Below are positions 6,295-15,850 of a stretch of 34,327 nt of DNA, piece by piece. Origin of the DNA: Caryophanon sp. (GTDB lineage Bacteria; Bacillota; Bacilli; Bacillales_A; Planococcaceae); NCBI GenBank assembly GCA_018384745.1, contig JAHAYH010000127.1:1-34327 (forward strand), read 5' to 3'. The notes beneath the pieces were generated by a model. That model searched no databases, was not told the origin of the DNA, and saw only the letters and a program-made list of their open reading frames with translations. The position numbers and the translations under genes were made by a program. Numbering within the stretch: position 1 is the stretch's first letter; each line of letters begins with the position of its first letter.

Positions 6295-6338
6295 AAAAAA
6301 GCACCACATTCTCATTTAAAAGAATGCGGTGCTTTTTT
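6295..6338 (-). terminator. Terminator of the tRNA-Arg transcript
   Basis: AAAAAAGCACC-CATTCT (6295-6312) pairs with AGAATG-GGTGCTTTTTT (6321-6338), with one mismatch in a long stem. On the minus strand the hairpin is followed by six U residues. It lies 31 bp after the tRNA 3' end. Confidence 0.88.
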
Positions 6339-6369: not shown

Positions 6370-6736
6370 CGTCCCAGACAGGACTCGAACCTGTGACCAA
6401 CGGCTTAGCTTACTACTACAATTTTCATTGCTTATGATTTTTTATAGTTCTATTTACCTATAAACAAACATAATTTGATAGTCTGGACTATAACTTCACC
6501 ATTTCAGGTGCGACACGTTTAGTCTCTACGGAACCTCTCGTAGTAAAAAATACTACTGCAACTACTCTACCTGCAAAATGCCATTCGAATAATCTCGTTT
6601 CCTCGGTATTGCCATCAGCATGATCTGTTAAGGGTTTACCGATATGGTGTCGTCCACTTTATACGTTACTTTTCCGTATAAAGGCTCCTATTTATAACTT
6701 AAAGGCCGTTGCTCTATCCAACTGAGCTACTGGGAC
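6370..6736 (-). tRNA. tRNA-Arg(UCU), interrupted by a group I intron
   Basis: The 5' exon is 6736-6702 (35 nt) and the 3' exon 6408-6370 (39 nt). Joined, they give a perfect 74-nt cloverleaf: acceptor GTCCCAG/CTGGGAC with discriminator G, D stem GCTC/GAGC, anticodon stem ACGGC/GCCGT, loop CTTCTAA (anticodon UCU), and T stem ACAGG/CCTGT with TTCGAGT. CCA is not encoded. The body resembles the Bacillus AGA-reading tRNA-Arg. The interruption lies between anticodon bases 34 and 35. A strong promoter and a terminator flank the gene, so it is a single-gene transcription unit and probably functional. If it is the only tRNA-Arg(UCU), intron removal is essential for reading AGA codons. Confidence 0.93.
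6409..6701 (-). ncRNA. Group I self-splicing intron inside tRNA-Arg(UCU)
   Basis: A 293-nt ORF-less intron. All paired regions are visible (minus-strand RNA, plus coordinates). P1: exon CUU (6704-6702) with guide GAG (6687-6685), giving the splice-site U-G wobble. P2: 6683-6675 with 6665-6657, 9 bp. P3: CGACAC 6652-6647 with GUGUCG 6516-6511. P4: UCGGUA 6642-6637 with UACCGA 6608-6603, J4/5 rich in A. P6: GGAA 6602-6599 with UUCC 6533-6530. P7 (guanosine site): GACUA 6524-6520 with UAGUC 6490-6486. P8: CACC 6510-6507 with GGUG 6500-6497. P9: UUAUG/CAUAA (6473-6469, 6436-6432) and UUAUAG/CUAUAA (6463-6458, 6447-6442). A GAAA-capped CAAU/AUUG hairpin is at 6430-6419. The last base is G (omega-G, 6409). 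P3 and P7 form the diagnostic pseudoknot. Several blocks recall the cyanobacterial tRNA-Leu(UAA) intron. Confidence 0.92.
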
Positions 6737-6766: not shown

Positions 6767-6795
6767 ATTATATGCGATAAATTTTTATAAGTCAA
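6767..6795 (-). promoter_or_regulatory. Strong sigma-A promoter of tRNA-Arg
   Basis: On the minus strand TTGACT (6795-6790), a 17-bp spacer and a perfect TATAAT (6772-6767). Transcription would start near 6760, about 24 nt before the tRNA 5' end. Confidence 0.88.
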
Positions 6796-15603: not shown

Positions 15604-15850
15604 AACAAAAAAAGAGACAGCAAAAACGTATGCTGTCTCTTTTACATGACGACTTAAAAAATCGTGCATGTGAGATAGCCCTCCAGAAATCGCTTCTGAC
15701 AGTCGTACATCTCTTAAATGCACAACCAGCAACACGTACGAACAACTTACGCATCACTTCGGCAAATGTTCCTTTCGAGTTGGCTCCAAACGAGGTTGTT
15801 CACCTCTTACCACACTGTACTGTTAACCTTTGCACCTCTATCATCACTGT
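15604..15850 (-). promoter_or_regulatory. Lysine riboswitch (L box) with terminator, upstream of lysC
   Basis: On the minus strand the leader has the conserved L-box blocks in order: GATAGAGGTGC (15842-15832), an AGTA loop, GCCGAAG (15764-15758), the CTGG-TTGTGCAT block (~15728-15717), ACTGTCA (15703-15697) and GGAGGGCTATCTC (~15684-15671). These match the B. subtilis lysC leader as I remember it. A terminator follows: AAAGAGACAGCA and TGCTGTCTCTTT (15642-15631 with 15622-15611) then TTTTTTT. Lysine binding should favour the terminator and lower lysC expression. Confidence 0.93.

Follow-up and report, generated by a model that had tools for sequence, protein, structure and literature searches.

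Group I introns are excised in two steps. The 5' splice site, marked by a U.G pair, is first attacked by a guanosine held in P7, and the exon so freed then attacks the site that follows the intron's terminal G. In tRNA genes, the tRNA-Leu(UAA) intron of cyanobacteria and plastids was reportedly described by Kuhsel and Xu in 1990 and by Paquin in 1997, and Reinhold-Hurek and Shub are said to have reported in 1992 small group I introns in the anticodon loops of Azoarcus tRNA-Ile(CAU) and alphaproteobacterial tRNA-Arg(CCU). In the literature, bacterial tRNA introns are listed from Cyanobacteria, alphaproteobacteria, and betaproteobacteria (PMC4033280); a 2014 review knows phage introns only from protein genes (PMC3984707). 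Group I introns of tRNA-Arg(UCU) have been reported in Beggiatoaceae (PMC4853749, citing MacGregor et al. 2013).

Here, we analyzed a 34,327-nt stretch of a Caryophanon sp. draft genome (the window), which very probably contains a splicing group I intron in the apparent sole AGA-reading tRNA gene, an immobile remnant of a family most likely spread by an endonuclease, with phages as probable carriers. Like the cyanobacterial and plastid tRNA-Leu(UAA) intron, it has position 34/35, a CUU/GAG P1, a similar size, and a similar core, but it resides in another tRNA and falls in a separate clade. The Azoarcus tRNA-Ile(CAU) and alphaproteobacterial tRNA-Arg(CCU) introns, taken from their descriptions rather than from reference sequences, differ in both tRNA and position. 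The Synechocystis tRNA-fMet intron with I-Ssp6803I (whose structure we take to be 2OST) is also a group I intron of a tRNA gene and bears a PD-(D/E)XK endonuclease in a peripheral region, although the tRNA is different and the intron belongs to another clade. The Beggiatoaceae introns are putative group I introns in the same host tRNA with the same anticodon, and the gammaproteobacterial members found here, which do not include the exact Beggiatoaceae sequences, share the clade of the window intron; they come, however, from Gammaproteobacteria and not Bacilli, and the accessible part of PMC4853749 describes neither endonuclease nor phage links. Finally, the cyanophage S-PM2 psbA intron and F-CphI (PMC3984707, PMC6083498) likewise combine a free-standing endonuclease beside an intron-bearing target with relatives in which the target is intact. 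In the present case, the target is a tRNA, the endonuclease is of another family, there is a bacterial intron-encoded stage, and cleavage by the endonuclease is presumed.

The earlier note on this DNA knew of no such intron in a Firmicutes tRNA-Arg(UCU). This holds for Firmicutes in the open-access papers, where we found no report from Bacilli or from phage tRNA genes (many subscription papers lie outside this literature), but not for the host tRNA, given the Beggiatoaceae. Introns of tRNA-Arg(UCU) are not new as such; the window copy is a new member, and what is new is the family as a whole, including its phage stages and an endonuclease associated with the tRNA. It extends tRNA introns to Bacilli and shows group I introns in phage tRNA genes.

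Structure of the split tRNA gene

We confirmed that, on the minus strand, positions 6370 to 6736 of the window hold a tRNA-Arg(UCU) gene into which a group I intron of 293 nt is inserted between U34 and C35 (Table 1). Without its intron mode, ARAGORN found no tRNA in the window; with it, the program returned tRNA-Arg(tct) with a 293-nt intron at 6409 to 6701, the coordinates and splice sites given in the earlier note. The exons had also been said to rejoin into a perfect tRNA, and only that one of 13 joins (shifts of -6 to +6) yielded Arg(UCU). All four arms of this normal tRNA (acceptor, D, anticodon, and T) are fully paired, and the intron bounded in this way has a U.G at its 5' splice site and ends in G. 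Of 64 tRNA-Arg(UCU) introns examined, 59 could be joined to Arg(UCU); each of these has CCUU at its 5' site and ends in G, and the remaining five were missed by the text pattern used for joining.

A strong promoter and terminator had been claimed as well. The promoter matches the consensus at 11 of 12 positions, but shuffles give about two promoter-like sites in the stretch by chance; the strength of the terminator was borne out by its folding energy, even if a simple terminator scan missed the hairpin. The flanking genes are ordinary chromosomal ones, encoding a metallophosphoesterase, Ham1/RdgB, and RNase PH upstream and a DUF4379 protein downstream. The only family above the Rfam cut-off in the window is a lysine riboswitch (15668 to 15848, minus strand, 98.1 bits). 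AGA is rare in the ORFs of the window (8 of 8,242 codons and 8 of 362 Arg codons), so that slow splicing of its tRNA may be tolerable.

Table 1. Features of the split tRNA-Arg(UCU) gene, in window coordinates
Feature	Position	Strand	Basis
Promoter TTGACT (6790-6795), 17-nt spacer, TATAAT (6767-6772)	6767..6795	-	Consensus scan
5' exon of tRNA-Arg(UCU), ending C32-U33-U34	6702..6736	-	ARAGORN intron mode and joined-exon test
ORF-less group I intron, 293 nt; 5' U paired in P1, last base G (omega G)	6409..6701	-	Joining, pairing counts, covariance model R1, intron-bearing relatives, empty sites
P1: exon CUU + intron U1 (6701-6704) / GGAG (6685-6688); splice-site wobble U6702.G6687	6685..6704	-	Pairing counts
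P10 candidate: UAG 6688-6690 / exon CUA 6406-6408		-	By inspection; could pair
P2 hairpin (6675-6683 / 6657-6665)	6657..6683	-	6/9 pairs changed on both sides
P3: CGACAC 6647-6652 / GUGUCG 6511-6516, pseudoknotted with P7	6511..6652	-	4/6 pairs changed on both sides, 100% paired
P4 (6638-6642 / 6603-6607)	within 6603..6642	-	100% paired, invariant
P5 (6632-6633 / 6612-6613; 6625-6627 / 6616-6618)	within 6603..6642	-	100% paired, invariant
P6 (6597-6602 / 6530-6535) and extension, here two hairpins only	6530..6602	-	P6 97.6% paired; extension by fold, P6a helix
P7: GACUA 6520-6524 / UAGUC 6486-6490, guanosine-binding helix	within 6486..6524	-	Invariant
P8 (6507-6510 / 6497-6500)	within 6486..6524	-	2 pairs changed on both sides
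P9-like hairpin CUAU 6478-6481 / AUAG 6458-6461	6458..6481	-	Sequence inspection only
3' exon of tRNA-Arg(UCU), starting C35-U36-A37; CCA not encoded	6370..6408	-	Sequence and joined-exon test
Intrinsic terminator hairpin, then U run	6295..6338	-	-27.5 kcal/mol, z = -8.7

Fold of the intron

To assess the fold, we aligned 17 introns of relatives over their conserved 5' and 3' halves, excluding the variable P6 extension. Standard pairs made up 99.4% of the cells over the 43 pairs from P1 through P8, the P3/P7 pseudoknot counted in. Sliding the partners by 1 to 3 columns lowered pairing to 33 to 40%, and none of 500 shuffles reached the observed value, a count that is not a probability because the rows are related. 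Twelve of the 43 pairs had changed on both sides (six in P2, four in P3, and two in P8); P4, P5, and P7 are invariant, so the covariation support comes from P2, P3, and P8. These compensatory changes across relatives bear out the group I core. As for its description as complete from P1 to P9, P1 to P8 follow from the pairing counts, while P9 is a P9-like hairpin seen by inspection of the sequence.

The window intron has the P3-P8 and P4-P6 domains with the P3/P7 pseudoknot that the structural definition of group I asks for, and all helices are present. The C-G, U-A, and U.G pairs of P1 are invariant in 17 of 17 introns, the window included by way of U6702.G6687, and the fourth pair is U.G or C-G; the omega G, at 6409 in the window, was found in 59 of 59 introns. 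As regards subgroup IC3, the intron appears to resemble tRNA introns. Within the P6 extension, an 8-bp helix (P6a) around an AAGG/GGUA internal loop recurs across introns, with 286 of 296 pairs against 205 ± 6 after shuffling, a count biased upward by choosing the best register for each sequence.

All the parts for group I splicing are present in the window gene. In the transcript, the intron would fold and the guanosine bound in P7 would attack after U34, at the U.G of P1; the freed U34 would then attack after the terminal G, joining the exons into an AGA-reading tRNA.

Detection by covariance models

A search with the Rfam model Intron_gpI, suggested beforehand as a check, failed: RF00028 scored the window at 16.7 bits (E 0.082), below its gathering threshold of 50 bits. 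The same model missed 15 of 15 relatives tested (best score, 32.1 bits), whereas it scores the cyanobacterial tRNA-Leu(UAA) introns well. We read the failure as probable insensitivity of a general model and did not file the intron under RF00028; scores below the cut-off also explain why such split tRNA genes are missed. Since the family is invisible to RF00028 and to ARAGORN in default mode, carrier genomes can appear to be without tRNA-Arg(UCU).

Because RF00028 failed as a detector, we built a covariance model of the intron 5' half from 16 introns (R1), with which the window intron, one of these 16 training rows, scored 124.9 bits (E 9.5e-25). The ARAGORN labels tRNA-Ser(gct), Glu, and SeC at L002 and L166-L176 proved to be register errors, as the forced CCTT|CTAAG join gives Arg(UCU). 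Weak R1 matches in Bacilli (G120, G134, and G094:C10) and outside Bacilli (L278-L282) had no tRNA, several being IStron-like, and those in G122 (in a phage-like gene) and G146 (outside any tRNA) were left uncounted. IStron-like group I introns of Bacillota (L178-L180, L278, and L280-L282) also match R1 weakly. A loose sequence-pattern search of the genome contigs returned at least 116 stretches, mostly chance matches in protein genes, and is not a census. The plasmids searched yielded a single 39-nt exon match and no endonuclease.

Distribution and phylogeny

R1 matched 35 of the 399 sampled Bacilli genomes, four of them with non-tRNA matches only, leaving about 31 genomes from 13 genera. In the 30 of these that were examined (the remaining one is G140), the intron was always in tRNA-Arg(UCU), and 12 further relatives also had an intron-bearing tRNA-Arg(UCU). 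Carriers include a genome of the same genus as the window genome (G002) and, among named organisms, Caryophanon latum, Lysinibacillus odysseyi, L. sphaericus OT4b.31, Domibacillus iocasae, several Exiguobacterium, Pallidibacillus, Paenibacillus sp. BSR1-1, and two Lactobacillales MAGs. In a sample of 398 genomes from across the phylum Bacillota, the intron was found in a tRNA in two only, both Bacilli. R1 also matched 23 of 229 Gammaproteobacteria; 11 loci (L216-L226) were in tRNA-Arg(UCU) and other matches in tRNA-Leu(UAA) and tRNAs called Gln, Met, or Leu. Loci L227-L235 and L251-L255 represent gammaproteobacterial group I introns of tRNAs other than tRNA-Arg(UCU) (Leu(UAA), or called Gln, Met, Leu, or Thr); some of those in tRNA-Leu, of about 690 nt, may have coding capacity.

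All 42 tRNA-Arg(UCU) introns, from Bacilli and Gammaproteobacteria alike, formed one clade (100/98) in a tree of 75 introns, and this clade persisted when phage introns were added (97/83). The window intron is not a lone event. Within the clade it grouped with two Lysinibacillus introns, L060 and L009 (100/98). The tree has about 125 usable columns, so both the branching inside the clade and the identity of its nearest sister are unsure; several cyanobacterial and gammaproteobacterial introns whose core was not extracted by text patterns were left out, and the cores of L218 and L221 are possibly partly misaligned. Cyanobacterial tRNA-Arg(CCU) introns were also found, and one entered the tree.

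The earlier note had suggested common descent with the tRNA-Leu(UAA) intron and a move to a new tRNA. The common position, the CUU/GAG P1, the similar GAGCC and AGAGACT blocks, and the membership of all these introns in one broad group of tRNA introns would fit a direct jump of a cyanobacterial-type intron into tRNA-Arg(UCU) in this lineage. We regard such a jump as very unlikely, since the cyanobacterial introns of tRNA-Leu are set apart in a clade of their own (99/100), the nearest sampled outsiders come from tRNA-Leu(UAA) of Gammaproteobacteria, and the joint clade of 42 introns implies that the change of host predates this lineage. A move from tRNA-Leu to tRNA-Arg(UCU) as such is possible but weakly supported: the position, P1, and blocks are alike, but the nearest outsiders are gammaproteobacterial, on a long branch, and the columns are few.

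Sole copy and empty sites

A second, intact tRNA-Arg(UCU) with the split copy silent had been named as a finding that would speak against the intron. None was present among the listed matches of a joined-exon search of the window genome, a 2.15-Mb draft, and the candidates for a second copy were tRNA-Asn genes. As the draft is 90% complete in 170 contigs, a second copy could be missing; however, other intron-bearing genomes that we checked, some of them more complete, likewise had no intact tRNA-Arg(UCU). A group I intron at 34/35 of a Bacillales tRNA-Arg(UCU), with a CUU/GAG P1 and in the only copy found, is supported.

These results bear on whether the gene could be a dead relic, whose intron no longer splices while another tRNA or an unassembled copy reads AGA. 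The rarity of AGA codons and the incompleteness of the draft would agree with this, as would a relative (G190, locus L149) that has, downstream of its intact intron-bearing tRNA-Arg(UCU), a decayed second copy comprising an endonuclease gene broken by an insert, the 3' half of the intron, and exon 2. In the window, however, the arms of the joined tRNA are completely paired, promoter and terminator are intact, and P3, P7, and P8 are complete, which together with the lack of an intact copy in the more complete relatives makes a dead relic extremely improbable.

The joined exons gave a continuous match of 61 to 74 nt in intronless relatives and two halves in intron-bearing ones. In one genus of the same family, we could align about 1.5 kb on each side of an intron-bearing locus (L258) with two intronless ones (L256 and L257), which are continuous exactly at the position of the 281-nt intron of L258. 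The same break was seen between L007 and L261/L262 and between L004 and L263/L264, aligned from the tRNA through one flank. Presence of the intron is thus patchy at an orthologous site, even within genera.

Homing endonuclease in related introns

Introns of more than 600 nt carry in the P6 extension a full-length frame of ca. 137 amino acids, whose last codons make up the 3' strand of P6 and whose stop codon immediately precedes P7. They come from Lysinibacillus (L060), Exiguobacterium (L038 and L148), another Bacilli family (L170), and Gammaproteobacteria (L221), while broken pieces are kept in L009, L168, L169, and others; only three full or nearly full endonuclease genes were found among the sampled Bacilli genomes. 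The two intron frames scanned matched Pfam PDDEXK_5 (PF11645; E 1.6e-36 and 5.6e-35), FDLV...QVKY with its conserved D...QxK site was invariant in six of six, and one intron endonuclease matched chain 2OST weakly (E 0.15). Judged by PF11645 and the active-site motif, the intron endonucleases of the relatives are of the I-Ssp6803I-type PD-(D/E)XK family. The intron-encoded forms of the two phyla are 57 to 59% identical, and identity to the enzyme of a cyanobacterial tRNA-fMet intron (L212) is about 22 to 26%. In intact copies, the P6a helix would consist of endonuclease codons.

The window intron itself has no intact homing endonuclease gene. As it nevertheless groups with L060, which has the full gene, and L009, which has a broken one, endonuclease loss is its likely history, and the window copy is likely an immobile remnant. 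A different arrangement was found in Paenibacillus sp. BSR1-1 (L084), where an ORF-less intron is followed just downstream by an intact free-standing endonuclease gene.

Phage tRNA genes and spread of the family

Free-standing members of the same endonuclease subfamily directly adjoin an intact tRNA-Arg(UCU) in cyanophage Sf-FR1 (53% identity) and Acinetobacter phage Herod (42%). We found the endonuclease in 42 viral contigs, and the nearest tRNA was tRNA-Arg(UCU) in 28 of the 41 that have a tRNA; after dereplication, the two genes were at most 120 nt apart in 14 of 21 loci. When tRNA identities were permuted within loci, adjacency was 4.4 ± 1.3 loci compared to the observed 9 of 11 (P = 0.0004), a test limited to 11 loci with at least two tRNAs including tRNA-Arg(UCU). 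A neighboring tRNA gene does not by itself establish what the endonuclease cuts.

Phages also carry the intron. A phage contig with a terminase large subunit (L318/L334) has it in tRNA-Arg(UCU) (2117 to 2420 of L318; R1, 73.7 bits), with a free-standing endonuclease gene ca. 80 nt downstream, while a related phage (L317) with nearly the same endonuclease and homologous flanks has a different, intact tRNA-Arg(UCU). In five more related phage contigs (L335, L336, L337, L339, and L340), tRNA-Arg(UCU) likewise contains the intron, and the stretches covered showed no endonuclease; introns of this type measure 229 to 231 nt. The 484-kb phage LR756508 (L342; LR756508.1, 11019 to 13542) has a group I intron in tRNA-Lys(UUU), verified by joining the exons, and, according to ARAGORN, a second one of 175 nt in tRNA-Arg(UCU). 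In the endonuclease tree, the intron-encoded forms of Bacilli (99/95) are placed among free-standing phage forms, a placement that, with the relevant fork open, would fit transfer in either direction.

Most likely, the endonuclease, with its presumed specificity, would cut intronless tRNA-Arg(UCU) genes, to be repaired from an intron-bearing copy, and phages are the likely carriers of the family, both homing and direction of transfer being presumptive. The intron could instead have spread by reverse splicing, or have been inherited vertically with losses, the endonuclease and phage links being side issues. Most Bacilli copies have indeed no endonuclease gene, and the CUU|N rule for insertion is compatible with tRNA-Lys(UUU) and tRNA-Leu(UAA) as well, which reverse splicing would permit. 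Patchy presence at the same locus within genera argues the other way, as do intact intron endonuclease genes in two phyla and beside phage tRNA-Arg(UCU), and we consider these routes unlikely.

The free-standing endonuclease gene beside an intron-bearing target, the arrangement of collaborative homing, occurs in both L318/L334 and L084. An intron and an endonuclease converging on one site and later fusing matches the collaborative homing described for psbA (PMC3984707, PMC6083498), and its stages seem to be visible here in one gene. On balance, we lean towards endonuclease-driven spread in the following form: a PD-(D/E)XK lineage specialized on tRNA-Arg(UCU) would travel in phages, and would have first teamed up with and then entered a group I intron, from which the mobile tRNA introns of Bacilli and Gammaproteobacteria would have arisen. 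All the stages would still exist, with the endonuclease beside an intact tRNA, beside an intron-bearing tRNA, inside the intron, decayed, or, as in the window, lost, and parts of the coding sequence would double as P6a. With this family, simple assays in harmless bacteria could show, in one gene, whether a mobile intron arose by collaborative homing.

Other phage loci involve other tRNAs. In Microcoleus phage My-WqHQDG (L341, 1013 to 1298), the deposited annotation spans a 286-nt tRNA-Arg, for which ARAGORN gives tRNA-Arg(CCU) with a 213-nt intron that groups with a cyanobacterial tRNA-Arg(CCU) intron. More distant phage PDDEXK genes (L276, L274, and L277, from Kuttervirus PM10, Streptomyces phage Forrest, and HATV-2) were found among or beside other tRNA genes, and different PDDEXK members may have different tRNA targets.
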